A stretch of DNA of 42,453 nt from Desulfomonile tiedjei (GTDB lineage: Bacteria > Desulfobacterota > Desulfomonilia > Desulfomonilales > Desulfomonilaceae), in assembly GCA_020722215.1 (NCBI GenBank), contig DYLG01000004.1:1-42453 (forward strand), in the 5' to 3' direction. Both the position numbers and the translations under genes were made by a program. Shown here one piece after another: positions 1 through 40,427 of this stretch. The notes under the pieces are model-generated. The model worked only from the letters and a program-made list of their open reading frames with translations, was not told the origin of the DNA and ran no database searches. Position 1 is the first letter of the stretch. The number at the start of each line of letters is the position of its first letter.

Positions 1-47
1 CTCCGTGCCGGTCCTTGGGTGAACGACCGGCAGGGACGCCGGTCGTT
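1..47. repeat. Partial copy of dispersed palindromic repeat (related to 33394-33437, inverted); contains hairpin AACGACCGG/CCGGTCGTT
   Basis: Positions 1-45 match the reverse complement of 33394-33437 at about 42/45 (one 1-nt gap, two substitutions). Perfect 9-bp arms at 22-30 and 39-47. Truncated by window start. Confidence 0.8.
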
Positions 48-126
48 ACCATTGCGGAGCTTGGAGAGCCGTATCCCGGCAGAAGCAATACCTCACCGAA
101 TCTTTGGAAAGGTGCGCTTCGGGCGC

Positions 127-6533: not shown

Positions 6534-6737
6534 TTCATAAGCTCACAAAGAAACACTTCTGCAAGAGGCGCAATATTATAGGGTTTGCTTTGACCTATAC
6601 TGCAGGTTGGTTGGCAGGGCCGCTCGGCACGATCTTGGACATTGAGGAGGTTTCGGAACGGCCTCCTAGCGGGCGTAATCCGACCTACCGGCTGAAGTTG
6701 CGGGATTTGCGACGGTATTGGTGAAACGCCGTAACAA

Positions 6738-7694
6738 ATGGACAGGGTTCCCATGAGCAAGACAGCTTCCGGTCCTCGAGGGAAAGGCAGGGACCTCACC
6801 GGCCTTCCCGGGCTCGCTCTGTCCGCGGGCGGAGCCAGAGGCGCGTACCAGCTTGGGTGTTGGAAGGCATTCGACGAGCTGGGCATCTCGTTCGGCGCTG
6901 TCGCGGGCAGCTCCATAGGCGCGCTCAACGGAGCATTCATTTGTGCCGGCGATCTCCATTCAGGCTTTCGGTTTTGGGAAGATCTCACCCGGTACGGAGT
7001 GCTCACACCGGACTATTCCAAGCTGCGCAGACTTGCCCTGCGGCTGGGTTTCGACCTGGCGCTCCTGCTGGTTCCGGTCCCGAACCTCAGGGCAATGAGA
7101 TTGCTCAAGTACGCAACTTCCACCGCAAGGCTCCTATCCCGAGGGGGAACCCTGCGGACCCTGGGCAGGGAAGGTCTGTGGAGTTTGGAAAGACTGGAGC
7201 CCCTGCTTAAGCGGCATCTCAATATGAAGTCGGTCCTAGACCAGCCAGTGCCGCTGTTTGTCACTGCTTACAGCCTGCCTCGGATATCCGCGCCCACAGG
7301 ACACTCCGCATGGTTCCGGTTGCAGGATTACGACGAATCGGACGCCGGAAAAATCCTTGCCGCGTCCATGTCCCTCCCGATGGTTTTTCCATCAATCGAA
7401 TTGAATCGCAAGCAGTACAGCGATGGAGGCATTTCGCAGTGGATGCCGGTGCAGCCGCTCTACGAAATCGGGCGCCGAAGGATAATTGCGGTGTCCACCA
7501 GGCCCAACGTCCCCTGTGATCCAAAAGACTACCCGGCATGCAGCATCTCGTTCATCAAACCCGCGGAGTCTCTGGGGCGCTTTCCGATTGCCACGTTTCG
7601 TTTCACCGCGCGCTCCCTTGCCCAGTGGGTTGAGCAGGGGTATCGGGACGCGATGCGGGCGCTCTGCGATTGGGGACGGTCAGGCAAGGGGTGA
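6738..7694 (+). CDS. Patatin-like phospholipase family protein
   Basis: LALSAGGARGAYQLGCWKAFDELG (oxyanion GGxR), GSSIGALNG (GxSxG) and YSDGGISQWMP (DGG). Confidence 0.88.
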   Translation: MDRVPMSKTASGPRGKGRDLTGLPGLALSAGGARGAYQLGCWKAFDELGISFGAVAGSSIGALNGAFICAGDLHSGFRFWEDLTRYGVLTPDYSKLRRLALRLGFDLALLLVPVPNLRAMRLLKYATSTARLLSRGGTLRTLGREGLWSLERLEPLLKRHLNMKSVLDQPVPLFVTAYSLPRISAPTGHSAWFRLQDYDESDAGKILAASMSLPMVFPSIELNRKQYSDGGISQWMPVQPLYEIGRRRIIAVSTRPNVPCDPKDYPACSISFIKPAESLGRFPIATFRFTARSLAQWVEQGYRDAMRALCDWGRSGKG

Positions 7695-19033: not shown

Positions 19034-19127
19034 TATGGTAGAGGTGTGCCCTGAAACAAGACCGACGTTCGTGGTACGGCACGGACCAAGGTGGTCTACC
19101 CGTGCGAACACCGCTAGGCCGCGTTAT

Positions 19128-19222
19128 GCAGGGGCGATCCTTGTGATCGCCCTCTTTGCGCGGCCCAAGGGGCGGTTGGAGGTGGATGCGGAGAAGAAGG
19201 GCGAATACAAGATTCTCCCCTA
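19128..19222. repeat. Two-hairpin intergenic element (CAGGGGCGATC...CCCCTAG)
   Basis: Hairpin 1 GGGCGATC-CTTGT-GATCGCCC (19132-19152); hairpin 2 GGGCGAAT-acaag-ATTCTCCC. Both ends are highly similar to 40336-40427. Confidence 0.75.
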
Positions 19223-22742: not shown

Positions 22743-22778
22743 CCGGGGAGGCCCCTTTCTGCAAAAAGGGGCCTCCGG
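22743..22778. repeat. Palindromic element CCGGGGAGGCCCCTTT...AAAGGGGCCTCCGG
   Basis: Perfect 10-bp arms AGGCCCCTTT/AAAGGGGCCT. Sequence equals the two terminal repeats of the 32950-33161 element placed nearly back to back. Confidence 0.75.
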
Positions 22779-22807
22779 CCGCAACCAAGAAGAATTTAAT
22801 ATACGGA

Positions 22808-28350: not shown

Positions 28351-28376
28351 CGGTCGAGGATACGCGACCGCATTTA
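28351..28376. repeat. Solo end of the 33335-33468 terminal-repeat element
   Basis: CGGTCGAGGATACGCGACCGCATTTA versus CGGTCGAAGAGATACGCGACCGTATTTA (reverse complement of the left end at 33 kb); 12 bp from the pilin stop. Confidence 0.7.
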
Positions 28377-28388
28377 GGAAAACCTGAC

Positions 28389-29003
28389 TCAGTACCCTCG
28401 ATAATTGCCCGAGGCGTCGAACACGCTTGCGGTATGTGTCGCTGCATAAGGCGCGGGTGACCAGCTCAGCGCGGTAGTCTCGTCCACGTACCCCCGGGAG
28501 GTTCCGTCTTCTTCCACCGCCGCATATGCTTTGGAAGGCGAGAACACGTCGCCGATGCAGGCCATCACGGTACGAACCACACCCTTTTCCGGTTCCACGG
28601 GATCAATTCGTGCATTGAGTCTCCCCTTCATCTTTATGAAGTACATAAATCTCGTGGCCCCACCCTTCGGACGGCTCCCGCGGATCGGGGTCGTGTAAAC
28701 GGTCAACGTCGGCGTGTCCAGGTAAGCCCTCACGTCGCACTTCTCCGATGTTCCTCCCCAACCGTAGAAAGGACCTGTCAGGTCTGACAACTTGGTCGGC
28801 GGCGCCTCGTTCTTGTTCAGGGGATCGCCCAGATACTGTTCCCAGGCAGCCATGATGTTTACCAGGTCCTGATGCGCCATCTTGTCGCAAGATGATAGTT
28901 TGTAGTCTATATAATAGGGCACGGCAATCATCAACAGCAGCGAGATGAACGTCAGGACGAACATAATCTCTATCATCGAGTATCCGTGCTTTCTCATGAA
29001 CAT
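28389..29003 (-). CDS. Type IV pilin/type II secretion pseudopilin-like protein
   Basis: RKHG|YSMIEIMFVLTFISLLLMIAVPYYIDYKLSSCD class III prepilin signature; AGGAGG 5' of ATG 29003. Confidence 0.82.
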   Translation of the reverse strand: MFMRKHGYSMIEIMFVLTFISLLLMIAVPYYIDYKLSSCDKMAHQDLVNIMAAWEQYLGDPLNKNEAPPTKLSDLTGPFYGWGGTSEKCDVRAYLDTPTLTVYTTPIRGSRPKGGATRFMYFIKMKGRLNARIDPVEPEKGVVRTVMACIGDVFSPSKAYAAVEEDGTSRGYVDETTALSWSPAPYAATHTASVFDASGNYRGY

Positions 29004-32949: not shown

Positions 32950-33161
32950 CCGGGGAGCCCCCTTCTTATAAATAACATGTGATTTCTTCGCTTCTCGCGA
33001 AGAAAACGTGGAAAATGGGCACGAAACCCCAACGATTCAGGTTCGTTAAGGGCGACCGCCGGTCGCCCCTACAGAATCCTTGGTGTCTTGGTGCCTTGGT
33101 GGTTAGTTTTTCTTTTTGGTTGCGGCCGGAGGCCGCGTCGTGCAAGAAGGGGCCTCCCCGG
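32950..33161. mobile_element. MITE-like 212-bp element with 18-bp terminal inverted repeats (17/18)
   Basis: CCGGGGAGCCCCCTTCTT (32950-32967) versus AAGAAGGGGCCTCCCCGG (33144-33161). Contains hairpin GGGCGACC-GCC-GGTCGCCC (33050-33068) and a CTTGGTG motif copy. No ORF. Confidence 0.55.
33078..33112 (+). repeat. 'CTTGGTG' dispersed intergenic motif, copy D
   Basis: ccttggtgtcttggtgccttggtggttagtttttc. Confidence 0.75.
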
Positions 33162-33334
33162 CCCCCTCCACCAAGAACTCTTCAAATGCCGGCCTGCATC
33201 CACCTTCGGCGGCTGCGGGCCGGATACTCAGCGCCACGCACCTGTTGGGTAGCCAACATGAGGCGGGTCCTGTCGGCACACGCAGTCAACAACCCGCCAA
33301 GGGAACGCTAGGCGGGACTTAGTAGACGATGGCG

Positions 33335-33468
33335 TAAATACGGTCGCGTATCTCTTCGACCGGGGCACGGTTCTCGACGGTGCGGATCGGTCGCGACCGG
33401 CGTCCCTCCCGGTCGTTGACCCAAGGACGGCACGGAGGCCGGTCCCTCCGGATACGCGACCGTACTTA
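33335..33468. mobile_element. MITE/BIME-like 134-bp element with 18-bp terminal inverted repeats (17/18)
   Basis: TAAATACGGTCGCGTATC (33335-33352) versus GATACGCGACCGTACTTA (33451-33468). Internal 44 bp repeated at window positions 1-45; end repeated at 28351-28376. 13 bp from the BY-kinase stop codon. Confidence 0.6.
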
Positions 33469-33481
33469 TGAAACGAACCCT

Positions 33482-35758
33482 TTAACCCTGGTTGGTAGTC
33501 TGGTGGTATTTCGACCCGCGGCCGTAGTAGTACTTGTTCCTGCAATAGTAGCTGTACCCGTCCGCACGGTCGTCCGCCATGTTCAGCACAATGCCCAGCA
33601 CGCGGCCTCCGCCCCGTGACAATGCGGCTTTAGCCTCGTTGAGGACGTCGAAAGGAGTGTGGCCTTGCTTTGTCACAAGTATCAGGCCATCCGCGTAGCC
33701 GTAGAGAACCCGCGCATCGGCCACTCCGAGAACCGGCGGGGCATCAAGGATCACCACGTCGAACATATTCCTGCACGAATCGATAAGCTCCTGCATTCTC
33801 CGGGACTTGAGCAGCGCGACGGGATTGTCATTGGCCGATCCGGCCGTGAGGTAGTAAAGATTGGGGATCTCAGTTCCGTGAATCAATTCGGTTAACTCAC
33901 GCGACCCGTCATCGACCGCATCACTGAGTCCGTGGACTCCGTTGCCGTTCTCGAAAATCTTGTGGATGCGAGGCCTTCTCATGTCCCCGTCGATGATGAG
34001 CACCCGCTTGCCTTCTGAGGCGAATACCGTTGCCATCACCACTGAAATGAGAGTCTTGCCTTCCATGGGAAGGGCACTGGAAACGCATATCACCGGCGCC
34101 GAATCACCCGGCAGAAAAGACAGGGCGGTATTCTGAATGATTCTGACCGAATCGGCAAACGCGGACTTGGGAAACTTGTGCGCAACAAATTCCGGATGGG
34201 TATCCCTGCAATCGATATCCGCGGACCGGTCGCGGCGGCGCAGTTTTGGCAGCGAACCGAGAACAGGAAGGTTTAGCCGTCTCTGAATCTCCCTGGTCGT
34301 CCGGACGGAATTATCCAGATACGAGCGCAACAACGCGGCGCCGATTCCGGCAAAAAGCCCCAATATACTGCCTAGGAAAAGGATCCTGCTCTTCCTGGGA
34401 TGAACCGGGTTCAACGGCAAGGTTGGGGGGCTGGTTACAGTGATGTTGTGCCCCACGATGCCCTGGTCCAGCTCAGCCTTCTTTGCCCTACGCCGAATAA
34501 GGAGGTACACTTGGGCGTTTGCTTCCATATCCCTTCTGAGTATTTCATACTGAACGCCGAGGTTGTTAGTGTTGATAGCCTCCTGTCTGGTCCTCTCATA
34601 AGCGTCCCTGGAAAGAACTTCTTTCTGGCGCGCAACCTCAAGCGCGGCAATGAGGTTGTCTTTTTCCATATCCGCAAGGGTTTCTTCCAATCGGGTAATC
34701 TTGCCCTTGAGCAGAACCATCTTGTAGAAATTGGGCGTATATATGGATCTCATATCCTGATACTTGGCCCTGAGTTCGCTCAGTTGCTCCTTCAGCCTCT
34801 TTGACGTAGCGTCCATCGCTTCTTCGGGCATGACTCCGTTCCTGGCCTGGGCCATCATCTGAAGGTTCATCACATCGGATTTTGACTCCAAGAGGCTTCT
34901 CCCCGCCGCGTCGAACAAAGTCAGAGCCTGGTCCGGATTCGTGTTGCGCAAAACTATGCCGTGCTTCTTCGTAAAGTCCAGCAGGGCCGATCGCGAGTCG
35001 TCAAGCTGCTTCTTGGCGTCGTCAAGCTGTTTCTTGAGCCACGAACGGACCCGCTCGTTCACCTCAAGCTGTTTGCGGCGACTCAGATCGATGTAAGCTT
35101 CCAAGTAAACGCTGAGCATTTGTTTGGCAACCATGGGATCCGTGGCCCCCATCTGCACTCGTATCAGACGTGTCCCTGGTACGGGAGCAGCCTTTACACC
35201 GCCCACCACGGAGTTGATTCGCTCGGCCTTTGCAGCCTCCAGGTCATACGTTGAGGCAAACCCGTTGCTCGGCTCGCCGGTCGCGAGCTGGGGAGGCTCA
35301 GCTCCCTCGCTCCGGCCGCCCGGCGATTGGGACCGGTCTTCGCTCATGCGCCTGATGAACTCATTGGCCAGATCTCTGCTCTTCAGGGCTTCCAACTGGG
35401 TTTGATAGAACAGTTCATACTCACTGAAATGGGCAAATACGTCGGCCAGTTCCGATGAGGGAGGATTGAACTTTTCCACCTCGACGATCGCGCTGGAAAC
35501 GAAGTAAGGCGTCGCGTGCATCAAATACGCGGTTGCTATGGCTATGCCCAATAGCAACACCGCAAGGACGGTCCACTTGCGATCCCATACGCTGCGAACA
35601 TAATGGGAGAGAGACCTCTGGCCCTCACCCGACGGGGCTAAAAGCCCTCTTAGCATGGTTTCCTCATAGATGGAATCCGGAACGCCAAGAGCGTCGAATC
35701 CGTGGCCGTTTCCGGCAATCACATGGAATGGCGCTTCTTTGCTGCCGTTGCTGGTCAT
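33482..35758 (-). CDS. Polysaccharide co-polymerase/BY-type tyrosine autokinase (Wzc/GumC-CpsD fusion)
   Basis: Wzz-like N-terminus with TM WTVLAVLLLGIAIATAYLM, coiled-coil region, Walker A SSALPMEGKT, Walker A' RVLIIDGDMRRPRIHKIF, Walker B DVVILDAPPVLG, Tyr-rich tail GYSYYCRNKYYYGRGSKY. Confidence 0.93.
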   Translation of the reverse strand: MTSNGSKEAPFHVIAGNGHGFDALGVPDSIYEETMLRGLLAPSGEGQRSLSHYVRSVWDRKWTVLAVLLLGIAIATAYLMHATPYFVSSAIVEVEKFNPPSSELADVFAHFSEYELFYQTQLEALKSRDLANEFIRRMSEDRSQSPGGRSEGAEPPQLATGEPSNGFASTYDLEAAKAERINSVVGGVKAAPVPGTRLIRVQMGATDPMVAKQMLSVYLEAYIDLSRRKQLEVNERVRSWLKKQLDDAKKQLDDSRSALLDFTKKHGIVLRNTNPDQALTLFDAAGRSLLESKSDVMNLQMMAQARNGVMPEEAMDATSKRLKEQLSELRAKYQDMRSIYTPNFYKMVLLKGKITRLEETLADMEKDNLIAALEVARQKEVLSRDAYERTRQEAINTNNLGVQYEILRRDMEANAQVYLLIRRRAKKAELDQGIVGHNITVTSPPTLPLNPVHPRKSRILFLGSILGLFAGIGAALLRSYLDNSVRTTREIQRRLNLPVLGSLPKLRRRDRSADIDCRDTHPEFVAHKFPKSAFADSVRIIQNTALSFLPGDSAPVICVSSALPMEGKTLISVVMATVFASEGKRVLIIDGDMRRPRIHKIFENGNGVHGLSDAVDDGSRELTELIHGTEIPNLYYLTAGSANDNPVALLKSRRMQELIDSCRNMFDVVILDAPPVLGVADARVLYGYADGLILVTKQGHTPFDVLNEAKAALSRGGGRVLGIVLNMADDRADGYSYYCRNKYYYGRGSKYHQTTNQG

Positions 35759-36671: not shown

Positions 36672-38447
36672 GTGGTAGACAGTCAATCAATCTGCAGCCT
36701 GCTGCTTGAAGCGGGAAGGATAACCAGAGACGATTTTCTCACCGCGCTTGCGGAATCCAAGCGGACAGGAAAATCGCCACAGGAGATCCTCGTGAAACAG
36801 GGCAAGGTCAGCGTTGATGAACTGGTTCAGGCCATCGCGATACATCTTGACATCACTTTGCTCAAGGAGGCCCTCGGCATGGAAAGCGATACTCAGACGC
36901 GCAACCTGCCGCCTCGGCCTCTGGGATCGTATCTCGAACGGATTTCTCTGCTTTTCAAGACCGGGCTGCTCATGAGCCGCGAGCGGAGCATGAGTTCCTT
37001 GATGGAGATCCTGCTTCAGGAAGCCCCGTCGGTCATGAACGCTGAACGGGCTACAATCTTCCTGGCGGATTACGAAACCCGCGAACTCTATTCGCATCTG
37101 GGTGTGGGACTCAGGCAAGGCCAGATACGCATTCCCTGGGATACCGGTATCGCGGGCGCGGTGTTCGTGAGCGGACAATCCCTCAACGTTCCGGACCCGT
37201 ACAACGATCCCCGATTCAATAAGCATGTAGACCCCAGAACCGGCTTCACAACTCGAAATCTCCTCTGCGTTCCTCTGAAGGTCCCGGGAGGACCGGTGAT
37301 CGGGGTATTCCAGGTGCTCAACAAACGCGCTGGGGTTTTCACCTCCACGGACAAGGAGATCCTGGAGATTCTGGCTTCTCAGGCTGCTCGATCCATTGAG
37401 AAAGTCCTTGAGTGGGACAGCGTGAGGAAGAGCATATCCCCGTTCTCCCAAACGAACGTTGACCGCAACGAGGCCTTGCGGGAGGAAGACCCACTGGATT
37501 TGATTATCGGAACGTCCGCAGCGATGAAGGGAGTCCGTTCTCTCGTTCGAAAAGTTGCGCCAACTGACAGCACAGTACTGATCCAGGGCGAATCCGGGAC
37601 CGGAAAGGAGCTGATTGCGCGTGCGATCCACGGGCTGAGTGCCAGACGGAAGGCCCCTTTGGTGATACTTAACTGCTCGGCCGTACCTTCGGAGCTTATC
37701 GAAAGCGAGCTTTTCGGCCACAAGAAAGGATCATTCACGGGCGCAACGGGAGACACCAAGGGTGTGTTCAGCTCCGCGCACGGGGGGACTCTTTTTCTGG
37801 ATGAGATCGAGGCAACTTCACCTGCGATGCAGGTGAAGCTCTTGCGGGCCATTCAGATCGGAGAGATCAGGCCTGTGGGAGATAACGTGTCCCACACGGT
37901 GGATGTGAGACTGATCACGGCCACCAATAAGGATCTCGCCGGCCTGGTGGACGCGGGTGAGTTCCGAGAAGACCTTTTCTACAGAATCAATGTCTTCCCT
38001 GTTACGATTCCTCCTTTGCGGGAAAGGAGAGAAGACATTCCTCTGCTGGTGGCACATTTTCTCCGCAAGCTGGCCCGCCAAAGCGGCAAGCGCGTGGAAA
38101 GCGTGGACTTGCCGGCATTGGACCTGCTGGTGAGGTATCCCTGGCCCGGCAATGTCAGAGAGCTGGAAAACGAGATCGAGCGGGCCCACGTTCTCGCCGG
38201 CGAGGAGCACAGCATTTCGGTGGGACGGCTTTCGGAGCGGATCACGAGGTCGGTTGAACAGTTGATCAAGACCAGCGCCCAGGACAAGCGACCCAGCCTG
38301 AAAGAGGCCGTGGAAGACCTGGAATATGGCATGATTCGCCAGGCCCTAGCCGAAGCCCAGGGAAACAGGACCGTCGCGGCAAAGTCGCTTGGTTTGTCCA
38401 GACAGGGACTGCTCAACAAGATGGCGCGATACGGAATGAGCTGGTAG
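36672..38447 (+). CDS. Sigma54-dependent transcriptional activator: MshEN-like N-terminus, GAF, AAA+, Fis HTH
   Basis: GTG start; ITRDDFLTALAESKRTGKSPQEILVKQGKVSVDELVQAIAIHLDI; GESGTGKELIARAIH; KGSFTGAT; GGTLFLDEI; RYPWPGNVRELENEIERA; NRTVAAKSLGLSRQGLLNKMARYGM. Confidence 0.92.
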   Translation: MVDSQSICSLLLEAGRITRDDFLTALAESKRTGKSPQEILVKQGKVSVDELVQAIAIHLDITLLKEALGMESDTQTRNLPPRPLGSYLERISLLFKTGLLMSRERSMSSLMEILLQEAPSVMNAERATIFLADYETRELYSHLGVGLRQGQIRIPWDTGIAGAVFVSGQSLNVPDPYNDPRFNKHVDPRTGFTTRNLLCVPLKVPGGPVIGVFQVLNKRAGVFTSTDKEILEILASQAARSIEKVLEWDSVRKSISPFSQTNVDRNEALREEDPLDLIIGTSAAMKGVRSLVRKVAPTDSTVLIQGESGTGKELIARAIHGLSARRKAPLVILNCSAVPSELIESELFGHKKGSFTGATGDTKGVFSSAHGGTLFLDEIEATSPAMQVKLLRAIQIGEIRPVGDNVSHTVDVRLITATNKDLAGLVDAGEFREDLFYRINVFPVTIPPLRERREDIPLLVAHFLRKLARQSGKRVESVDLPALDLLVRYPWPGNVRELENEIERAHVLAGEEHSISVGRLSERITRSVEQLIKTSAQDKRPSLKEAVEDLEYGMIRQALAEAQGNRTVAAKSLGLSRQGLLNKMARYGMSW

Positions 38448-38466
38448 GACGGGCATCTTGCCCGTC
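38448..38466. repeat. Hairpin GACGGGCA-TCT-TGCCCGTC immediately after the stop codon
   Basis: Perfect 8-bp stem, 3-nt loop, starting at the base after the TAG at 38445-38447; no T-run. Confidence 0.7.
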
Positions 38467-40273: not shown

Positions 40274-40335
40274 CAAAGCATGGGAGCAACAGTCGGCAAC
40301 CCCTATAGGCGGGACTTACCGGCACTGCCGGTGAC

Positions 40336-40427
40336 GTAGGGGCGATCCTCGTGATCGCACTCTTTCGCAGCCCTAATGCTTGATTCGTGGCCGGATGCCG
40401 CGAAGAGGGCGAATACAAGATTCGCCT
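40336..40427. repeat. Two-hairpin intergenic element, copy related to 19128-19222
   Basis: GTAGGGGCGATCCTCGTGATCGCACTCTTT...GGGCGAATACAAGATTCGCC. Confidence 0.75.

Follow-up and report, generated by a model that had tools for sequence, protein, structure and literature searches.

The window analyzed here is a 42,453-nucleotide stretch of Desulfomonile tiedjei DNA (assembly GCA_020722215.1, contig DYLG01000004.1), and beside the 3' end of a BY-kinase-like gene on its minus strand (33482 to 35758) it carries a complete 158-bp non-autonomous element, very probably an IS630-type MITE, which end alignment and a repeat search place on the plus strand at 33323 to 33480. The left terminal inverted repeat (TIR; 33323 to 33354, plus strand) begins with TAGACGATGGCGTAAATACGGTCGCGTATC, and the right one (33449 to 33480, minus strand) reads GGGTTCGTTTCATAAGTACGGTCGCGTATCCG as its reverse complement, both delimited by end alignment. 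Outside them lie the two copies of a target duplication, an exact CTTAG on the left (33318 to 33322; pattern match with 0 mismatches) and on the right a copy decayed to TTTAA in which the central TTA is kept (33481 to 33485). Two hairpins in inverted orientation, each with a degenerate GTAG tag, make up the core of the element: REP hairpin 1 (33390 to 33417, plus strand) reads GTCG plus CGACCGGC..CCGGTCG and is of the same type that flanks a RAYT gene in the relative G007 (L148), and REP hairpin 2 (33425 to 33449, minus strand) reads GGAG plus GGACCGGCCTCCGTGCCGTCC and forms a BIME/REPIN-like pair with hairpin 1. The neighboring gene has Wzz, GNVR, and AAA_31 domains, which bears out the BY-kinase identity given to it in an earlier, sequence-only reading of the window; a search for its relatives in named genomes found none.

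That reading had described a 134-bp element at 33335 to 33468 bounded by 18-bp TIRs. The repeats are exactly as described (33335 to 33352 and 33451 to 33468, 17 of 18 positions), and shuffling the region 200 times produced no equal pair. The element itself is real but its coordinates were too short: in an alignment of 65 ends the conserved end (consensus cCTNAG-TACTTCGTTTCACAAATACGGTCGCGTATTC) runs about 12 bp beyond these arms, up to a CTNAG motif, and the 134-bp repeat is therefore the inner part of the 158-bp element. Over the full TIR, the two ends of the window copy agree at only 21 of 36 positions. An Rfam search of the element returned no match.

Additional copies are present elsewhere in the window. 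A repeat search recovered a truncated copy at the contig end that retains the REP pair and one arm of the TIR-bounded shell (1 to 91, minus strand); the inverted recurrence of the internal block that had been claimed for the start of the window holds at 42 of 45 positions over the first 45, and the longer match, over positions 1 to 91, agrees at 72/91. One end of the element does recur at 28351 to 28376, also as claimed, and here we find a truncated copy reduced to its right TIR, which stands solo, and the start of a CGTC-like cargo (GTGACGGT; 28359 to 28387, minus strand), followed by a CTCAG target site (28388 to 28392); the pilin label proposed for the adjoining gene (28389-29003) was not confirmed by any Pfam match. 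A weak solo TIR relic (6704 to 6733, minus strand) adjoins the start of gene 6738-7694, and an isolated REP (GTAGGACGGGCATCTTGCCCGT) lies without a TIR shell at 38444 to 38465 on the plus strand. The window also holds several other repeats. One dispersed repeat (CTTGGTGTCTTTGTGCCTTGGTGGTT) occurs at four sites (20106, 22802, 33070, and 40485) and also adjoins several MITE copies in the genome; a hairpin (GGAGGCCCC..GGGGCCTCC) is present as 52-bp inverted copies with 87% identity at 22743 to 22794 and 33110 to 33161; and a GGGGCGATCCT(T/C)GTGATCGC repeat has two copies, at 19123 to 19218 and 40331 to 40426, with a second conserved block at equal spacing.

The genome from which the window derives (G000; 3.74 Mb in 289 contigs, 82% complete) gave 49 matches to a 154-bp query, 16 of them at E<1e-5, and its 41 matches to the core end CAAATACGGTCGCGTATC (up to 3 mismatches) compare with 1 in a reversed control. 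Copies of a MITE-like dispersed family, as the element had been labeled, are thus present far beyond chance; the genome-wide repeat search recovered more than three, with ends common to them, and many copies in G000 are degenerate or solo ends. A longer end pattern that includes CTNAG matched 90 times in G007 and 55 times in G008, two relatives from the same family, and 0 times in controls. We found 59 plus/minus end pairs, nearly all spanning 93 to 390 bp, and the 57 paired copies within this range are short, non-coding, and TIR-bounded, as MITEs are. Shell ends also occur in Acidobacteriota, in Bryobacterales MAGs, as ~150-bp elements (L223 and L224), one of them (L224) a short element with CTAAG on both flanks; judged from these sequences, this would imply wide spread or horizontal transfer of the element. 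A match in Bacteroidales (L215) is probably due to chance, and it sits in an apparent coding sequence.

CTNAG lies directly outside both ends of paired copies. We place it outside the inverted repeat because its two copies are direct repeats, whereas an inverted repeat would pair CTTAG with CTAAG. A check for target duplications, which had been proposed from the sequence, found CTNAG copied on both sides: the middle base N is equal in 35 of 58 end pairs, where shuffling predicts 20.9 (p=5e-5); among the 20 pairs with intact CTNAG on both sides, 16 agree. We sought empty sites by connecting the two flanks of each copy and comparing the result with the sequences collected for this analysis; this added to the evidence for target duplication and revealed two nested insertions. 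One is a 152-bp copy (L022) nested in a REP pair of the same type as the window's, within its spacer. Its flanks, joined around one CTAAG, show no gap at the junction when aligned to REP pairs that lack an insertion, including those at 52..1 and 33384-33441 of the window. The other (L040) is nested in another shell copy, and its empty-site alignment has one 1-base gap. We rejected a canonical TA duplication; TA is present in the element tip, but the empty site lacks it and the CTNAG repeats lie outside the tip.

An autonomous partner whose ends are of this kind was identified in another genome of the family (G015), where a 1298-bp end pair (L088) has CTAAG on both sides and encloses two ORFs in different frames with the HTH and DDE_3 domains typical of IS630 transposases (HTH_29/HTH_23 and DDE_3; Pfam HTH_29 9e-7, DDE_3 3e-12). 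G000 itself retains a truncated relative (C93:1-509) that begins with CTTAG plus the shell end and is 74% identical at the DNA level. The proposed check for a RAYT or a transposase with matching ends therefore came out against the former and in favor of an IS630-family DDE transposon. Two additional insertion sequences, one in another Desulfobacterota genome (L233) and one on a Polaromonas plasmid (L237), have this kind of end, 58 to 65% identical transposases, and flanking perfect 5-bp repeats (CTTAG and CTAAG, respectively), and a more distant one with a different end (L236) has CTTAT repeats. Scores against the NCBIfam IS630 model were 120.6 bits for L233, over the cut-off, and 38.9 and 95.1 for the two halves of L088, each of which alone is below the cut-off of 100. 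All four insertion sequences thus carry perfect 5-bp repeats (CTAAG, CTTAG, CTTAT, and CTAAG) in place of a TA duplication, while two other IS630 elements analyzed as controls by the same method gave the canonical TA; the partner transposase is therefore IS630-like by protein sequence, not by target. Consensus sites fit a duplication of three bases (TNA) or five (CTNAG) alike, but the CTTAT on both sides of L236 favors five, and a five-base CTNAG copy accounts for the sites more simply than TNA. For Streptomyces and Rhodococcus IS630 relatives, no clear ends were detected by the method used. IS5/DDE_Tnp_1 elements, considered on account of the TNA target, were rejected after one strong but isolated shell end was seen among the loci scanned (L172). 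No intact transposase of this type was found in G000 (82% complete) or in the two genomes with most of the copies, G007 and G008, and the family may therefore be immobile in all three now. In L088 the transposase region (319-1477) is split into two frames at a TTTTCCCCC run that is also present in the relic at C93 1-509 of G000, suggesting a putative programmed frameshift site.

The interior of the element has the character of a separate repeat system, with GC-rich imperfect hairpins, GTAG-like tags, inverted pairs, and many copies, as in REP/BIME families; the MITE/BIME label first given to the element was right on both counts, since it is a MITE shell with a BIME, an inverted REP pair, inside. 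The pattern GTAG+ACCGGC..GCCGGT occurs 88 times in G000 compared with 6 in the control, and also in other genera in which the shell pattern was not found (G002 and G012). Hairpins of this kind flank Y1_Tnp (RAYT) genes in G007 (CGACCGGCCTCCGTGCCGGTCG at L148 and GACAGGCAAGATGCCTGTC at L153), where another RAYT locus (L140) is adjoined by the hairpin CCGTGGGT..ACCCACGG. Shell interiors are of at least five kinds, namely the ACCGGC GTAG/GTGG type, the GACAGGC type, a CGTC-like type, the CCACGGG type, and the GAAGCAATCTC type; the CGTC-like interior (GTCACCCCGG..CCGGAATGACG) is found in 9 of the 23 paired copies of G000, and the interiors of 8 copies fall outside all REP classes defined. Two copies in G008 (L117 and L137) enclose a palindrome, GAGATTGCTTCGC..GCGAAGCAATCTC, unlike the GTAG or CGTC types.

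It could be that RAYTs placed REP pairs, independently at many loci, into palindromic shells already present there, in which case shell and cargo are no mobile unit; Di Nocera et al. interpret comparable arrangements as palindromes into which REPs have inserted, and REPs without shells do exist, as the 88 pattern matches in G000 and four individual cases (L006, L018, L025, and L026) attest. We consider this unlikely. Two copies (L101 and L127) are alike over nearly the whole of 152 bp, with unrelated flanks and CTAAG twice at each, and we conclude that cargo moves with the shell because subfamily copies of this sort have TIRs, arms, and REPs in common as one block, while their flanks are unrelated and every copy has a separate CTNAG duplication. 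Likewise, the empty site of L022 indicates that the inserted unit was the whole 152-bp block, including its cargo.

The position of the copies relative to genes was examined with calls from a simple, purpose-written hexamer model, not a full gene finder. Only 1 of 184 ends lies inside a predicted gene, compared with 659 of the 845 CTNAG sites that lie apart from elements in the stretches surveyed, and this near absence of insertions from coding sequence is likely due to loss by selection. For every N, TNA is a TAA or TGA stop codon on one strand. Distances from stop-facing ends to the stop codon peak at 0 (9 cases) and 1 (10 cases), with none at 4 to 7, because the stop codon lies in the target (CT-TAG, C-TAA-G, or C-TGA-G). 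In the window both the BY-kinase gene (TAA, 33482 to 33484) and gene 28389-29003 (TGA, 28389 to 28391, minus strand) end with a stop codon inside the target itself; the spacing of 12 to 13 bp from stop codons in the sequence-only reading was an artifact of truncated coordinates. Its proposal of targeting to, or retention at, gene 3' ends captured a real coincidence, with a stop codon inside the target at 19 of 137 insertions, but one better explained by C|TNA|G: free non-coding CTNAG sites contain a stop codon in 14 of 186 cases (odds ratio 2.0, Fisher p=0.093), and we rejected stop-codon targeting beyond CTNAG availability as not significant. The target sequence and tolerance of the insertions therefore suffice, with no extra targeting.

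Another reading is a functional element at gene 3' ends, a terminator or mRNA stabilizer kept by selection and not mobile. Folding of the element as single-stranded DNA is stronger than that of shuffles (z -3.47), and ends facing stops outnumber those facing starts (100 versus 67, p=0.013), both in line with such a role. Against it stand the wide diversity of interiors and the frequency of nested copies and solo ends; stop-codon overlap does not significantly exceed site availability, and the target duplication and match to an insertion sequence show transposition; we regard a purely functional element as improbable.

IS200/IS605-type transposition makes no target duplication, and a RAYT as mobilizer was rejected, with no Y1_Tnp found in G000 (82% complete) and shell ends at none of 30 RAYT loci of relatives. 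Least credible, and in our estimate very improbable, is a REP/BIME family moved by RAYTs with longer REP flanks or a TIRtron (a RAYT gene with TIRs, on record; PMC3733652) as its outer repeats, for although the core does consist of a true inverted REP pair with counterparts beside relatives' RAYT genes and Y1_Tnp genes are present in 6 of the 7 same-family genomes searched, the duplicated target, the match of the ends to an IS630 DDE element, and the enclosure of unrelated REP families by these ends all speak against it.

We conclude with high confidence that the element at 33323 to 33480 is an IS630-type MITE that uses a C|TNA|G target, carries a REP pair as cargo, and was presumably moved in trans by an IS630-family transposase; it is not RAYT-driven, because of the shared IS630 ends, the duplicated CTNAG target, and the empty-site counterparts. 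Its ~33-bp ends (TAC..TTTCACAAATACGGTCGCGTATTC) are those of an IS630-family (Tc1/mariner-type, DDE_3) insertion sequence, the transposase of which would act on the element in trans, with insertion at C|TNA|G and duplication of TNA or of all of CTNAG. An insertion on a stop codon would rebuild the stop and leave the gene intact, because the duplicated TNA is itself a stop on one strand. The interior hairpins would be part of a different repeat system, one associated with RAYTs; different REP pairs may have been gained by several founders, each of which then amplified as a unit, and the shell would thereby ferry REP palindromes around the genome. We infer an entry of REPs into the shell, for which RAYT insertion into a shell or REP capture between two neighboring shells is possible, and any hairpin effect at mRNA 3' ends is likewise presumed.

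REP palindromes rank among the most frequent repeats in bacteria, and the literature names the spread of those of CGTC type, which have no known transposase, as an open question (PMC3733652). A MITE shell of DDE type with several REP families as cargo provides a specific way for them to spread that can be put to the test, and the stop-codon-containing target gives a simple reason that such repeats can occupy gene 3' ends. More broadly, we give even chances to a scenario in which an IS630-type clade exchanged the TA target for C|TNA|G, duplicating 3 or 5 bp, and its miniatures became general carriers of REPs, CGTC-type REPs included, with a target that allows these miniatures to occupy stop codons harmlessly. 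A relative of IS630/Tc1-mariner that does not use TA would, if true, mean that a hallmark of the superfamily can change.

The closest known counterpart is QMITE2 of Coxiella burnetii, a 150- to 190-bp MITE with a GTAG REP inside that lies mainly in 3' untranslated regions and whose small versions resemble plain REPs (PMC5896051). QMITE2, however, has variable direct repeats of 7 to 11 bp and one cargo, whereas the Desulfomonile shell carries several REP families, has the C|TNA|G target, and has an identified autonomous partner of IS630 type. With IS630 and ISY100 (Tc1/mariner) and their MITEs, the family shares an HTH plus DDE_3 transposase, TIR-bounded ends, and a short target duplication; these two duplicate the dinucleotide TA (PMC2170065), while in the Desulfomonile-type clade TNA or CTNAG is duplicated instead, and TA belongs to the tip of the element. 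As in REPINs and BIMEs with RAYTs (PMC3116915, PMC3733652), there is an inner hairpin pair with a GTAG-like tag, and such hairpins lie beside relatives' RAYT genes, but the shell also carries CGTC-like REPs, which are said to lack a transposase. REP dimers inside palindromes have been mentioned briefly for Anabaena variabilis and H. neapolitanus; in the Desulfomonile family, the surrounding palindrome is recognized as the end pair of a transposon with a target duplication. Eukaryotic NuwaII transposons share the C|TNA|G target and its 3- or 5-bp ambiguity (PMC4482050), but the resemblance is limited to the target, as their transposase belongs to the PHIS superfamily and not to IS630. MITEs with a REP inside (QMITE2) and REP dimers within palindromes (Anabaena) are therefore already known. 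The literature searched, which left most subscription journals and ISfinder outside, held no precedent for an IS630-type clade with a C|TNA|G duplication or for one shell with several REP families, and we provisionally regard both as new.
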